A stretch of DNA of 64,000 bases from Ectothiorhodospiraceae bacterium BW-2 (lineage in GTDB: Bacteria; Pseudomonadota; Gammaproteobacteria; Thiohalomonadales; Thiohalomonadaceae), in assembly GCA_008375315.1 (NCBI GenBank), contig CP032507.1, positions 3,806,071 to 3,870,070 of the forward strand. The letters are read 5' to 3'. Below are positions 22,771-48,956 of the stretch, piece after piece. Each line of letters begins with the position of its first letter. The stretch's first letter is position 1. The notes under the pieces were generated by a model. That model had not been told where the DNA came from. It searched no databases and saw only the letters and a program-made list of their open reading frames with translations. The position numbers and the translations under genes were made by a program.

Positions 22771-24363
22771 GTGTCACTCGATATCTGCTGCTATCAGATC
22801 GTACTCGACCACCTAACAACCGGCGTGATGCTACTCGATGAGCACCACACCATTCTCATCGCCAACACCCCGTTAGCCCAGCTCTTTCACCACACGACTA
22901 CCGCACTTCGCGGCCAGAGCTACCAACAACTCACCGGTCAAGCCACCCCCCCCGATTCAGAGCAGAAGAACAAGTGTTGCCTGACCCTACCGTTAGAGGG
23001 GGGAACTCGTCGCACCCTTGAGATAAAACGGCTACCACTCGCGTCCCCCCCCTCCTGCATGGCAGGATATCAGCTACTCACAGCCACCGATATTACCGTA
23101 CAAAAAGAGCAGCAGAGGCAGAGCGAACAGACTATGCTCGCGCTCATTGATGCAGAAAACGCCGAAAGTCTCTTTATGAGCAACATGAGCCACGAGCTAC
23201 GCACCCCGATTCACGGTATTAGCGGTATGCTACAGCTCATCGCTAACGAAATTAGCCCCGACTCTGAACGGGGCCACGAATATATTATGCAGGCCTGGAA
23301 CAAATCACAGGAGCTAACTCGGGTAGTGGACACCATTCTCGACTTCTCCCACATTAGCGCCGCCGACTTTACCCCCAAAGTGGCCCCCTTCTCATTAAAC
23401 TGGCTGTTAATGGAGCTAATCGATGAGTATCGCCAAGACGCCTCCCACAAGGGGCTAACCCTAGAGCTACAGCACGACACCACACTACCGGAGTGGCTGT
23501 TAGGTGATCGCATTCGGCTGCAACAGGTCTTAATCAACCTGCTCTCTAACGCCATCAAATTCACCATTGAAGGTCAGATCAGCCTAGCTACCCACGCCCT
23601 TACCAGCGATGAAGAGGGGAGCTGCCGCATCCGTTTTAGTATCAGCGATAGCGGTATCGGCATTGAGGCACAACATTTAGAGTCTATTTTCAAACCGTTC
23701 TGGCAGGTCGAACGCACCCGCCAGCGCCGCTTTAGCGGTACCGGCCTCGGGCTAACTCTTAGCGAACAGATTATTCGCAATATGGGCAGTGAACTGCGGG
23801 TAGAGAGCGAACCGAACCGAGGTAGCTGCTTCTACTTCGAACTCACCCTCCCCCTCTCCACCACCACCCGCCCGCCATCAACAGCAGACATCGACGCCCT
23901 CGTCGAGAGCGATCTGTTCGATGATGATGACACCGAACTATTTACTACCGAACCGGCACCGGCGCCGCGCCACAACAGCCTTAAGATCGCCGATGAGGCT
24001 AAAATTGTCCAACTACAGCAGCTAATGGGAGACCGTTTTACCACGCTACTCACCACCTTCTGTCAAGATGCGTCACAAAAAATAGATCGCCTAAAACAGT
24101 GTCAAACCCCAGCCTGCCGACACGACCTACTTATTGCTCTAAGAGGCAGTAGCGCAGCGGTCTCTGCTACCGAACTAGAACAGCTCTGCCACCACCATGA
24201 GCAGCAGTTACGACAAAACCCAGCGTCTGAAGATGACAGCTATGATAATATCGTCATCGAACTGATTGACGCCCTTGCCCGCTTTGAAAACTACAGCCAA
24301 ACCTACCTATCGCTATCATCCGCCAGAGAGACTCCATGCCCGTCGTACCACCAAATAGATTAA
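22771..24363 (+). CDS. PAS histidine kinase with a C-terminal HPt-like domain lacking the His
   Basis: A 530-residue kinase starting at GTG 22771. Residues 1-110 form a PAS domain (TTGVMLLDEHHTILIANTP); the HisKA motif is NMSHELRTPIHGIS with the phospho-His at SHE; the ATPase has N box QQVLINLLSNAIKF, G1 ISDSGIGIE and G2 GTGLGLTLSEQII. There are no membrane helices, so it is cytoplasmic. The C-terminal 100 residues resemble an HPt four-helix bundle, but the HxLKGSS site reads IALRGSSAAV, so the phosphorylatable His is absent. The kinase probably phosphorylates the receivers encoded on either side. Confidence 0.9.
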   Translation: MSLDICCYQIVLDHLTTGVMLLDEHHTILIANTPLAQLFHHTTTALRGQSYQQLTGQATPPDSEQKNKCCLTLPLEGGTRRTLEIKRLPLASPPSCMAGYQLLTATDITVQKEQQRQSEQTMLALIDAENAESLFMSNMSHELRTPIHGISGMLQLIANEISPDSERGHEYIMQAWNKSQELTRVVDTILDFSHISAADFTPKVAPFSLNWLLMELIDEYRQDASHKGLTLELQHDTTLPEWLLGDRIRLQQVLINLLSNAIKFTIEGQISLATHALTSDEEGSCRIRFSISDSGIGIEAQHLESIFKPFWQVERTRQRRFSGTGLGLTLSEQIIRNMGSELRVESEPNRGSCFYFELTLPLSTTTRPPSTADIDALVESDLFDDDDTELFTTEPAPAPRHNSLKIADEAKIVQLQQLMGDRFTTLLTTFCQDASQKIDRLKQCQTPACRHDLLIALRGSSAAVSATELEQLCHHHEQQLRQNPASEDDSYDNIVIELIDALARFENYSQTYLSLSSARETPCPSYHQID

Positions 24364-24374
24364 CCCCCCCTAGC

Positions 24375-25496
24375 ATGACCATTCTAATTGCCGATGATGA
24401 TCTCATTAATCGGATGGTATTAGAGGGGATGCTACTTGAGTCGGGCCATACTGTCCTGATGGCAGAGGATGGACGCAGCTGTATTGAGCGCTTTATTGAG
24501 GCGCGTCCCGATCTCATCTTAATGGATGTGATGATGCCGGAGATGGATGGCTACCAAGCCACCCGCCAAATTAAGGCCTACGCTGACGAAATGGGCTTTT
24601 TTATTCCCATCATCTTTCTGACCGCCATTACCGATGAGGAGGGGTTAGCGGCCTGTATTACCGCCGGTGGAGATGATTTTCTCACCAAGCCGTTTACGAA
24701 GGTGATTTTGCTCTCAAAAATTCAATCGATGCAGCGCCTCTCCCACCTCTACCAGACCATTAACCAACACAAAGAGGAGATGATCGCCGAGCAGGAGACG
24801 GCCAAAATTGTCTTTAATCGCCTCATTGAGATGGGCTCTCTCACCCAGCACGACAACTTCAAATATGTCAACTCCTCCATGTCGCTATTTAACGGTGATC
24901 TACTCATCGCCTCCGATCTACCCGATGGTAGCACCTGTGTACTGTTAGGGGATGCGACCGGCCACGGCCTACCTGCGGCACTCGGTACCATGCCGGTATT
25001 TGATACCTTCTATTCGATGTGCAGCAAGGGGATTGAGCCGGAGAAGATCATCTCCACCTTAAACGATAAGCTCAAAGCACGACTACCGGTGCAGTACTTT
25101 ATCTGTGCCGCTCTTATCCATATTAGCGCCACCAAAGAGCGCGTTGATATCTGGAACTGTGGTCTGCCCGAAGTGATCGTTTACTCCCCATCGAACTCAA
25201 GCATCACAACCAAAGTGACCGCCACCGGCCTGCCGTTAGGGATTCGGGCCGGCGTGGAACTCAAATCGATCTCCATTCGCGTTGAGACCGGCGATCGCCT
25301 CTACGCTTACTCCGATGGCATCACTGAAGCGAGATCGCCCGCCGGTGAGATGTTCGGCAAACAGCGACTAGAGGCCTGTTTTCTGCAAAATAGTGCCCCA
25401 GAACGGTTATTTGAAGAGATTTTAGCGACGATAGAGCGCTTCACCGCCGGACTCTCACAGGGGGATGATCTGACAATTATCGAAATCTCGCTGTAG
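24375..25496 (+). CDS. response regulator with SpoIIE/RsbU-type PP2C phosphatase
   Basis: I favour ATG 24375 (MTILIADDDLINRMVLEG) as the start because it begins the receiver; ATG 24336, overlapping the kinase gene, would add 13 residues. The receiver (1-125) has DDD, phospho-acceptor Asp in LILMDVMMPEMDGY and Lys in FLTKPFT. A coiled linker leads to a PP2C-type phosphatase (about 165-373) with the metal-binding Asp in NGDLLIASDL and the motif LLGDATGHGLPAAL, plus YSDGITEA near the end. Such proteins dephosphorylate STAS antagonists when their receiver is phosphorylated. It completes the set needed for a partner switch. Confidence 0.92.
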   Translation: MTILIADDDLINRMVLEGMLLESGHTVLMAEDGRSCIERFIEARPDLILMDVMMPEMDGYQATRQIKAYADEMGFFIPIIFLTAITDEEGLAACITAGGDDFLTKPFTKVILLSKIQSMQRLSHLYQTINQHKEEMIAEQETAKIVFNRLIEMGSLTQHDNFKYVNSSMSLFNGDLLIASDLPDGSTCVLLGDATGHGLPAALGTMPVFDTFYSMCSKGIEPEKIISTLNDKLKARLPVQYFICAALIHISATKERVDIWNCGLPEVIVYSPSNSSITTKVTATGLPLGIRAGVELKSISIRVETGDRLYAYSDGITEARSPAGEMFGKQRLEACFLQNSAPERLFEEILATIERFTAGLSQGDDLTIIEISL

Positions 25497-25562
25497 AGCA
25501 GATCAGTCAACACGCCGCTAGCCTAGCACCAAATCGGTGCACTCCTGCCCTGTAACGAACCA

Positions 25563-25579
25563 TTCAACTCGCTATTGAA
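25563..25579. promoter_or_regulatory. inverted repeat, possible enhancer site
   Basis: TTCAA-N7-TTGAA lies about 95-110 bases upstream of the sigma-54-type promoter, the distance at which enhancer-binding activators of sigma-54 usually bind. No activator is encoded nearby. This is inference from position and symmetry only. Confidence 0.3.
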
Positions 25580-25672
25580 CGCCATCGCTTAGAGCAGACG
25601 CAAACCGTCATTCCCTCTCACTCTCTATAAAATCATAGCGTTATCGGCGCTATGGCGATAGCCAGCCTCTAC

Positions 25673-25688
25673 TGGCACACAATCTGCT
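25673..25688 (+). promoter_or_regulatory. sigma-54 (RpoN) promoter candidate
   Basis: TGGCAC-ACAAT-CTGCT matches the -24/-12 consensus TGGCAC-N5-TTGCW with one mismatch in the -12 box, and the essential GG and GC pairs are exactly 10 bases apart. Transcription should begin near 25699. It faces a set of hairpins and a terminator, not a protein gene. Confidence 0.55.
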
Positions 25689-25698
25689 TTACCCATAC

Positions 25699-25813
25699 CA
25701 ACTGGCAGTGACGCTGGTTACCGCTTTCAGGCAGTGCCTGAAATCAAATGTAGGTTGTTATGGGTTTTGGACAGCGGCACCGCCCCCTTAGGGTCACGGT
25801 GCCGTCTTTTTTT
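25699..25813 (+). ncRNA. putative sigma-54-driven small RNA (about 115 nt)
   Basis: From the predicted start the RNA folds by eye as stem-loop 1 at 25700-25719 (7 pairs, two G-U), stem-loop 2 at 25725-25743 (8 perfect pairs, loop AGT), a 32-base unpaired stretch rich in G and U (25744-25775), and a terminator hairpin at 25776-25803 with seven U. This layout of two hairpins, an open seed and a Rho-independent terminator is that of Hfq-binding trans-acting RNAs such as the Qrr RNAs, which are also sigma-54 dependent. The sequence does not match any RNA family I can identify. It converges on the 3' end of rpoS, stopping 2 bases short of it. Confidence 0.5.
25776..25813 (+). terminator. Rho-independent terminator
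   Basis: GGCACCG (25776-25782) pairs with CGGTGCC (25797-25803) and is followed by GTC and seven T. The T tract is only on the plus strand side, so it ends plus-strand transcripts: the small RNA, or the partner-switch operon if that reads 280 bases beyond its last gene. Confidence 0.9.
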
Positions 25814-25814
25814 C

Positions 25815-26771
25815 CTAATCGTGTTCATCGGGATAGAGGACATCCCGCTCTAATTTGCGCTGCTGAATGATTTTACGCAACTTTTGTAGCGCCTCATTCT
25901 GAATCTGGCGCACCCGCTCTCGGGTGATATCGAGATCGATACCGATCATCTCCAGCGTCTGTGCAGGGTAGTTATGCAGTCCGAAGCGGCGCAGCACCAC
26001 TTGGCGCTGGCGCAGGGTTAAATGGGTTAACCAAGTATCGACCAGCGCATGTAACTCCTGATCTTGTATCACTTCAGAGGGATCGGGCTGTAACTCATCA
26101 ATCAGCGTATCGGCTAGCGTCAACTCCCCCTCTCCCGCTAACGGCGTATCGATGGAGCTGTTTCGCTCGCTCAGCTTCAACAGCCGCTCGACCTCCTCTA
26201 GTGGCTGATCGACCGCTTTGGCAATCTCATCACAGCTCGGCTCGTGCTCAAGCTGCTGCGCTAGCTGCCGCGCTGCTCGCAGATAGGTATTAATCTCTTT
26301 TAGGATATGCACCGGCAGCCGCACAGTGCGACTTTGATTCATAATCGCCCGCTCAATCGTCTGCCGAATCCACCAAGTCGCATAGGTCGAAAAGCGAAAG
26401 CCGCGACGCGGATCAAACTTCTCGACCGCATGAATCAGCCCTAAGTTGCCCTCCTCAATCAGATCCGGCAGCAGCACCCCCCGATTGGTAAATTGTCGTG
26501 CAATTTTGACCACCAGACGCAGATTGGCCTCAATCATACGCTGCCTAGCCTCTCGATCTCCCGTCTCGATCTTTAGCGCCAGTTCGATCTCCTCCTCTGC
26601 ACTTAGCAGCGACTTAAACCCGATCTCGCGCAGATAGATTTGGATGGTGTTAACCTCGGCACTCATTGTGCCCTGCTCTATGGGGAGTGAGACTTCGCTC
26701 TCGATATCTACATCGGTATCGGTATCCATACCAGTTTGAGGCGGCTGTGGGCTCACCACAAACTCACCCAC
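25815..26771 (-). CDS. rpoS: RNA polymerase sigma factor RpoS
   Basis: A 318-residue stationary-phase/general stress sigma factor. Region 1.2 starts [17 protein letters not shown]; region 2 has [20 protein letters not shown] and [20 protein letters not shown], with core-binding and -10 recognition residues; region 3 has [16 protein letters not shown]; region 4 has [19 protein letters not shown]. Length is close to the E. coli protein (330). The frame begins at GTG 26771; an ATG at 26729 is possible because no strong ribosome site decides. It is downstream of nlpD, whose gene normally contains the main rpoS promoter. A convergent partner-switch operon may control it. Confidence 0.97.
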
Positions 26772-26786
26772 GACCGCCAGCTCAGC

Positions 26787-27860
<1,074 letters not shown>

Positions 27861-46083: not shown

Positions 46084-46844
46084 TCAGTGAAATAGATCTT
46101 CGGGCTTTTCGGCGGTCAGGATGCGTTCGGACCAATGCAGTAAAGTGTCGGCATCGGCCTGTTCGATCCTTGCCATCGTCTCACCAGGTACTATGCCAAA
46201 TTTGGTTTTCAGTTGGCGGATGAGTATATTTGCCTCACCTTGTTGCAAGCCTTGTTGCACATATTTATCGATAAATGTCTGCATCAGTGGTTCTCCATCG
46301 GGTAGGGTCTGTAATGCTTCACGCGCTTCGGTTTCGCTAACTCGTTCCGTGGCTTGTACATAGTAGCGCAATAGGCACTCTAATACATCTACCGCTGTGG
46401 CGCGATCTTGAATTTGCCGGATTAGGTCAATCAGCTCTAGCAGTCGCTGTAGCGGTTGCTTATCATAGATATAGCGTAACGCTAATGAGGCCATACGGGT
46501 CAGTACTTCCCCTTTGAGTTCCAGTTTTCCGTGGGGGGAGATGTCGTGTAGATCGTAATGAAATTGGGGGATATAGGGGGTGAGTGCTGCGGGGAGTGGT
46601 CGGATTAGGGCTTGATAGTCGCGGGCTATATTCCAGCGCGATTGGCCGTGGTAGAGCACTATCGGATAGACCGGTGGCAGGTATTTGGCTTTCGGATTCT
46701 GTTTGCGATAGGCCTCTGCACTAAGCACTTGATAACGAAGTAGTTGTAGCGCTACCCAGCGGTCGGGGGTGCTTTTGTGGTCAAACAGCAGGTAGATGTG
46801 AACCCCTTCTGGCCTCTCCTCCTCGGATAGGTCGGGTTCGTGAC
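46084..46844 (-). pseudogene. Rpn/transposase_31 family gene, copy 2, N-terminally deleted
   Basis: This copy matches copy 4 almost exactly (both encode RQLKTKFGIVPGETMARIEQ) but stops abruptly at 46844, in the codons for HEPDLSEEE. About 65 N-terminal codons, the start and the leader are gone and the sequence joins directly to the right arm of the palindrome and then copy 3. The truncation removes the first conserved Asp of the nuclease fold. A start at 46728 could give a 214-residue remnant with no complete active site. Confidence 0.88.
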
Positions 46845-47975: not shown

Positions 47976-48956
47976 TCAGTGAAATAGATCTTCGGGCTTT
48001 TCGGCGGTCAGGATGCGTTCGGACCAATGCAGTAAAGTGTCGGCATCGGCCTGTTCGATCCTTGCCATCGTCTCACCAGGTACTATGCCAAATTTGGTTT
48101 TCAGTTGGCGGATGAGTATATTTGCCTCACCTTGTTGCAAGCCTTGTTGCACATATTTATCGATAAATGTCTGCATCAGTGGTTCTCCATCGGGTAGGGT
48201 CTGTAATGCTTCACGCGCTTCGGTTTCGCTAACTCGTTCCGTGGCTTGTACATAGTAGCGCAATAGGCACTCTAATACATCTACCGCTGTGGCGCGATCT
48301 TGAATTTGCCGGATTAGGTCAATCAGCTCTAGCAGTCGCTGTAGCGGTTGCTTATCATAGATATAGCGTAACGCTAATGAGGCCATACGGGTCAACACTT
48401 CCCCTTTGAGTTCCAGTTTTCCGTGGGGGGAGATGTCGTGTAGATCGTAACGAAATTGGGGGATATAGGGGGTGAGTGCTGCGGGGAGTGGTCGGATTAG
48501 GGCTTGATAGTCGCGGGCTATATTCCAGCGCGATTGGCCGTGGTAGAGCACTATCGGATAGACCGGTGGCAGGTATTTGGCTTTCGGATTCTGTTTGCGA
48601 TAGGCCTCTGCACTAAGCACTTGATAACGCAGTAGTTGTAGCGCTACCCAGCGGTCGGGGGTGCTTTTGTGGTCAAACAGCAGGTAGATGTGAACCCCTT
48701 CTGGCCTCTCCTCCTCGGATAGGTCGGGTTCGTGACGATACTCTACGCGATAGACTAGATCTGAAAACGATTTGCGCAGCTCTTTGCTGACATAGCTATC
48801 TTTGGCGATGGTCAGGGTGCTCATATCTAGGAGGACGACTATCTCGTTCGGTAGGTAGTGTTGCAGGTAGTCTTGCGCTAGCTCTTTGCGTTCGAAGTTC
48901 TCGCGAAAGAAGCGATCGTGGGGGTCGGTGAGGGTGGTGTGGGGCGGTTTTTTCAT
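47976..48956 (-). CDS. Rpn-family recombination-promoting nuclease/transposase_31, copy 4
   Basis: An intact 326-residue copy; start ATG 48956 lies 13 bases after the stop of the HAD phosphatase gene, so it is read as part of that operon. Domains as in copy 3: Asp in SFSDLVYRVE, D-x-K in LLFDHKS, C-terminal YVQQGLQQGEAN. It differs from copy 3 mainly in its last 60 codons. Unlike copies 1 and 3 it lacks the 37-base leader and the palindrome upstream, so its left neighbour sequence was probably lost at insertion. Confidence 0.9.
   Translation of the reverse strand: MKKPPHTTLTDPHDRFFRENFERKELAQDYLQHYLPNEIVVLLDMSTLTIAKDSYVSKELRKSFSDLVYRVEYRHEPDLSEEERPEGVHIYLLFDHKSTPDRWVALQLLRYQVLSAEAYRKQNPKAKYLPPVYPIVLYHGQSRWNIARDYQALIRPLPAALTPYIPQFRYDLHDISPHGKLELKGEVLTRMASLALRYIYDKQPLQRLLELIDLIRQIQDRATAVDVLECLLRYYVQATERVSETEAREALQTLPDGEPLMQTFIDKYVQQGLQQGEANILIRQLKTKFGIVPGETMARIEQADADTLLHWSERILTAEKPEDLFH

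Follow-up and report, generated by a model that had tools for sequence, protein, structure and literature searches.

A candidate NtrC- and sigma-54-dependent non-coding RNA gene beside rpoS in Ectothiorhodospiraceae bacterium BW-2

Described RNAs that resemble the proposed rpoS-side transcript

The Qrr RNAs are short and structured, have a sigma-54 promoter and a terminator, and are controlled by LuxO in Vibrio. RsmZ of Pseudomonas lies, like the RNA proposed here, downstream of rpoS. NrsZ of Pseudomonas aeruginosa is an intergenic non-coding RNA that responds to nitrogen limitation through NtrB/C and RpoN (PMC8395346), and its published motif is ACAGGCAG (PMC9308961). Similarly, CrcZ of Pseudomonas is an RpoN-dependent intergenic RNA, and its activator, CbrB, belongs to the NtrC family (PMC8395346). 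NfiR of P. stutzeri, a stated homologue of the Rfam family P11, is controlled by NtrC and lies beside nasA (PMC6606865). Finally, ANTAR targets follow the rule of a hairpin with an A1/G4 hexaloop (PMC3369931).

The window analyzed here is a 64,000-nt stretch of a single 4.07-Mb contig. Within it, a 318-bp gap (25497-25814) lies between a partner-switch operon and rpoS. The operon encodes STAS, receiver, receiver-HATPase, histidine kinase-Hpt, and receiver-SpoIIE proteins; its last gene (24336-25496, plus strand) encodes the receiver and SpoIIE/PP2C phosphatase (Pfam Response_reg and SpoIIE). The rpoS gene (25815-26771, minus strand; stop codon 25815-25817) was recognized by NCBIfam RpoS equivalogs above their cut-off and is convergent with the proposed non-coding RNA of about 115 nt (25699-25813, plus strand), whose start is predicted from the -12 element and whose end is taken from the terminator. 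Profile matches identified NtrC (TIGR01818, 735 bits, cut-off 558.6) and Hfq (103 bits) in the genome, with ntrC located 125 kb from the proposed RNA gene. The gene adjoining rpoS in the nlpD position (26787-27860) has a long Thr-Pro dipeptide repeat linker, encoded by a simple repeat in the DNA through which long frames are open on the opposite strand as well.

Judged by analogy, NrsZ is the nearest known RNA in behavior. Compared by the published motif alone, seven of the eight bases of ACAGGCAG (CAGGCAG) are found within hairpin 2 of the proposed RNA, an overlap that is suggestive at most. NrsZ is, however, a processed RNA of 226 nt encoded beside ntrC, whereas the proposed RNA has about 115 nt and lies beside rpoS. 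CrcZ is similar as an RpoN-type intergenic RNA with an NtrC-family activator, but it is 407 nt long and has many A-rich Hfq motifs, while the proposed RNA is short with a G/U-rich open part. RsmZ has many GGA motifs and is under GacA control; the RNA described here contains one GGA and gave no Rfam match. The initial annotation had also drawn a parallel with the Qrr RNAs, which held for the architecture (a sigma-54 promoter, a short structured RNA, and a terminator) and failed for the control, with LuxO acting in Vibrio and NtrC proposed here. The Qrr models of Rfam found nothing on the gap, either at gathering score or at E<=10. With no Rfam match and nothing pointing to LuxO, Qrr identity was rejected.

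No Rfam family reached its gathering score when the covariance models were run on the gap. At relaxed thresholds, P11 (RF00625) gave a full-length match of 23.8 bits (E 0.0022), under the gathering score of 70 bits. This match was carried by the sigma-54 promoter, by the GGACA before the terminator, and by the terminator itself. Indeed, P11 and NfiR share with the proposed RNA NtrC sites, a sigma-54 promoter of the form TGGCAC-N5-CTGC, and GGACA before the terminator. In contrast, RNAs of the P11 type have paired A1/G4 hexaloops, the last of them being GGAC[AAAGGC]GUCC, and lead into nitrate/nitrite assimilation genes, while the gap RNA has a single hexaloop and no such gene. Because the second hexaloop and an ANTAR protein are both missing, membership in P11/NfiR was rejected. 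The A1/G4 hexaloop of hairpin 1 had also raised the possibility of an ANTAR target; this was rejected as well, since no ANTAR protein is encoded in the genome.

Across 369 genomes, P11 appears to be a leader, seemingly driven by sigma-54, that contains hairpins with A1/G4 hexaloops as well as a terminator. One same-family genome has a P11 element directly 3' of an ANTAR gene; other elements precede nitrate-transporter-like or nitrite-reductase-like genes (nrtA-like and nirB-like, names assigned by reading the translations). P11, and hence NfiR, thus looks like the leader of a nitrate/nitrite assimilation operon (for example, G008 C1:2606721-2607309); Rfam describes it merely as a Pseudomonas sRNA. 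When an NrsZ gene was looked for in one genome that matched P11 strongly, no sigma-54 site was found 3' of its ntrC. ANTAR proteins are encoded in 10 of 20 family genomes, and none is encoded in BW-2, whose genome is complete.

Predicted promoter and enhancer elements of the gap

The top-scoring sigma-54 site of the window, TGGCACACAATCTGCT followed by TT, was found at 25673-25688 on the plus strand. It reads TGGCAC-ACAAT-CTGCT, a -24/-12 promoter with the GG-N10-GC spacing of RpoN sites, just as the initial annotation had described it. In a shuffled 64-kb window, only 0.08 sites scoring at least as high are expected. The pattern TGGCAYN5YTGCW matches the genome 31 times, against 5 times for the reversed pattern, and its intergenic matches sit ahead of nifH, nifU, flgG, the P-II gene, and a pilin-like gene. 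The gap site resembles those ahead of nifH, nifU, flgG, the PII gene, glnA, and urtA elsewhere in this genome. A weight matrix built from ten training sites, the gap site being left out, gave it 18.1 bits, where the training sites span 18-26; this matrix is not independent of TGGCAYN5YTGCW because its training sites were partly picked by that pattern. Among the near-misses to the sigma-54 pattern were two minus-strand copies of TTGGCATAGTACCTGGT (46183-46199 and 48075-48091), 1.9 kb apart and identical over at least 22 bases.

Upstream of the promoter we found a perfect NtrC box, GCACC-AAATC-GGTGC (25526-25540), that the initial annotation had not named. Its center lies at -165 from the predicted start, inside the range of 80-200 bp expected by comparison with this genome's nitrogen genes, and we propose it as the enhancer. 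Perfect boxes of the form GCACC-N5-GGTGC occur nine times in the 4.07-Mb genome (twice for the reversed control). Six are within genes, and the three intergenic ones precede glnA, precede urtA, or lie in the rpoS-side gap. At glnA and urtA, a sigma-54 site that carries one deviation comes after the box (centers at -105 and -112). Alone among the 30 other sigma-54 matches, the PII gene is preceded by a near-perfect NtrC box (-179); the sigma-54 promoters of nifH and nifU have NifA-type sites and not NtrC boxes. Thus glnA, urtA, and PII serve as positive controls, and nifH and nifU as negative ones. When the gap was shuffled 20,000 times, an NtrC box arose in 15 shuffles and a sigma-54 site in 56, with both together in none. 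On this sequence evidence, the promoter at 25673-25688 is very likely dependent on both NtrC and sigma-54. NtrC often works from two boxes, and the single clear box of the gap counts against an NtrC-driven RNA gene. Both nifH and nifU are present in the genome, whose sigma-54 promoters divide cleanly between NtrC and NifA boxes.

A dyad, TTCAA-N7-TTGAA, had earlier been singled out as the place where an activator would bind. It is present at 25563-25579, but it does not stand out, because the gap contains 12 five-base dyads where 2.8 are expected. The activator is probably NtrC, at 25526-25540, and not a protein at this dyad. In addition, an IHF-like site with one mismatch, AATCATAGCGTTA (25631-25643, plus strand; 0.19 expected in the gap), lies between enhancer and promoter and is weak evidence.

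Predicted transcript ends, folding, and search for relatives

From the -12 element, transcription is predicted to start at 25699. This position may be shifted, since NfiR starts 29 bp from its sigma-54 site and not 12 bp (PMC6606865). A strong intrinsic terminator (25774-25813, plus strand) with T7 at 25807-25813 ends the RNA about 2 nt short of the rpoS stop codon. The reading frames of the proposed RNA contain no ATG with a Shine-Dalgarno sequence, and by this reading there is no credible ORF after the promoter. No terminator of the upstream operon was found between 25496 and 25774, and part of the proposed RNA may be the operon's 3' UTR because the operon lacks a terminator of its own in the gap.

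Hairpin 1 (25700-25719, plus strand), AACUGGC[AGUGAC]GCUGGUU, has seven pairs and the hexaloop AGUGAC; hairpin 2 (25725-25743, plus strand), UUUCAGGC-AGU-GCCUGAAA, has eight pairs and contains CAGGCAG. These are followed by a G/U-rich open segment (about 25744-25773, plus strand), the proposed base-pairing region. All of these elements, like the terminator with its seven T, were recovered where the initial annotation had placed them. Over hairpin 1, the minimum free energy fold favors a different pairing. Without the terminator, hairpins 1 and 2 are no more stable than shuffled sequences (z -0.2 to -0.4) and are thus not evidence of selection; the RNA from 25697 with the terminator has a z of -1.6 to -1.7.

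An overlooked 12-nt inverted repeat changes this picture. Its 5' arm, ACCCATACCAAC (25691-25702, plus strand; 11/12 complementary), pairs with GTTGTTATGGGT at 25754-25765, where the 3' arm, GUUGUUAUGGGU, is part of the proposed seed. Because of this pairing, moving the start to 25691 or 25688 lowers the z to -3.3 to -3.5 without the terminator and to -4.4 with it, and folds lacking the arm have a z of -1.4 to -1.8, against -4.4 when it is included. Apart from this outer stem, no fold at the RNA is strongly significant; a comparable inverted repeat occurs in 2.7% of shuffled gaps. An RNA starting at 25699 cannot form it, because the 5' arm lies mostly upstream, with its first 8 nt ahead of that position. 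There are three readings: transcription begins further upstream than predicted, the stem is part of a read-through RNA of the operon, or the repeat is due to chance. In the computed folds, the 3' arm is unpaired with a probability of 0.64 in the short RNA and of 0.10-0.31 in the read-through RNA, which suggests that exposure of the seed may depend on where the transcript starts.

The BLASTN comparison with related genomes proposed in the initial annotation brought up no homologue: the gap against 55 other genomes and the RNA against 368 other genomes of the class both gave only short chance matches. A covariance model built from the single sequence had a best foreign E of 0.024 per genome across the 368 genomes, as chance predicts, and found nothing at the rpoS loci of relatives. 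No equivalent RNA was seen 3' of rpoS at 15 readable family loci or 3' of SpoIIE homologues in relatives, nor was an NtrC box with a sigma-54 site seen at the rpoS or SpoIIE loci of relatives. Nor do these genomes conserve the order of genes around rpoS or around the SpoIIE homologue. Homologue searches have little power here because RpoS identity among family members is about 57%. The host genus is represented by no second species in the collection used. As far as these collections go, the RNA seems to be lineage-specific.

Proposed regulation and competing explanations

A sigma-54-dependent small RNA, as put forward in the initial annotation, is well supported, and more strongly than could have been known at that point, because a perfect NtrC box lies upstream and is arranged as at glnA, urtA, and PII; the activator and the Qrr analogy are the parts that did not stand. 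With somewhat better than even confidence, we favor a non-coding RNA gene in its own right that belongs to the nitrogen regulon, is driven by NtrC and sigma-54, and gives a trans-acting, NrsZ-like RNA of about 115 nt. Speaking against it, the genomes searched gave no homologue or syntenic counterpart, and with that no conservation or covariation, and hairpins 1 and 2 alone are no more stable than shuffles. When nitrogen is limiting, phosphorylated NtrC would bind the box at 25526-25540, the DNA would loop, perhaps with the help of IHF, and sigma-54 polymerase would be activated at 25673-25688. Transcription would then begin near 25699 and stop at 25807-25813, and the G/U-rich open part of the resulting RNA would pair with targets in trans, while Hfq would occupy the terminator tail. 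What the DNA shows directly is the set of promoter elements, the terminator, and the absence of a credible reading frame. That the promoter fires, and does so on nitrogen starvation, we infer from glnA, urtA, and the PII gene, where the grammar is identical; pairing in trans with Hfq is suggested by the architecture, including the U tail of the terminator (T7), and by the presence of Hfq in the genome. When the open segment was surveyed for pairing around the starts of window genes and of nitrogen genes, the glnA leader came top, with pairing at -36 to -7 (z -2.8; P 0.02-0.03, uncorrected for the genes tried), and may be taken as a lead only. The start of rpoS ranked an unremarkable 5 of 43.

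As an alternative, the RNA might act in cis, as an antisense RNA or by convergent transcription, the NtrC-driven transcript overlapping the rpoS 3' UTR and tuning rpoS mRNA in nitrogen-starved cells. The two genes are convergent, with the RNA ending just before the rpoS stop codon, and the first terminator-like signal 3' of rpoS, a minus-strand hairpin with a T-rich tail (25654-25634), lies beyond the entire RNA. The strong terminator, however, halts the RNA ahead of the rpoS coding sequence, shared terminator regions are common among convergent neighbors, and the neighbors of rpoS differ among relatives; we regard such control in cis as rather unlikely. Slightly less credit still goes to the partner-switch operon simply ending in this segment, as its 3' UTR and terminator, with sigma-54 and NtrC motifs arising by chance. 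The lack of any other terminator between 25496 and 25774, and a most significant structure that requires bases upstream of the predicted start, both agree with it, but the finding that no shuffled gap contained both motifs together and a layout like that of glnA, urtA, and PII do not.

Two further explanations are weaker. If the RNA were a relic or a variant form of a nas/nirB leader (P11, NfiR) with ANTAR-type hexaloop hairpins, this would explain the weak full-length match, the single A1/G4 hexaloop hairpin close to where one is expected, and the GGACA right before the terminator. We disfavor it as very improbable: the score is far under the cut-off and is owed to promoter and terminator, GGAC[AAAGGC]GUCC and an ANTAR protein are absent, and the next gene is rpoS, on the opposite strand. 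Most improbable of all is a promoter that drives a small protein; a 27-codon GTG frame (25708) does lie inside the RNA, but with a leader of 9 nt, it has no ATG, Shine-Dalgarno sequence, or homologue, and it continues into the terminator.

The outer stem also allows a more elaborate proposal, which we think unlikely, in which one segment gives two RNAs with opposite seed exposure. Read-through from the operon would fold the long stem and hide GUUGUUAUGGGU, whereas a start from the NtrC/sigma-54 promoter, lacking the 5' arm, would free it, so that the RNA would be active only under nitrogen starvation. As an antisense to the rpoS 3' UTR, the active RNA would couple the nitrogen state with the general stress response. 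Start-dependent seed exposure would be the unusual aspect of this locus.

Returning to the stand-alone, NtrC-driven RNA gene, the NtrC box narrows a general guess of a sigma-54 RNA to a specific regulon assignment. The gap RNA is plausibly a new, lineage-specific, experimentally unverified example of an already known kind of regulatory RNA. If real, it would give a gammaproteobacterial lineage that carries nitrogen-fixation genes a non-coding RNA under nitrogen regulation, and would place nitrogen control physically next to rpoS.
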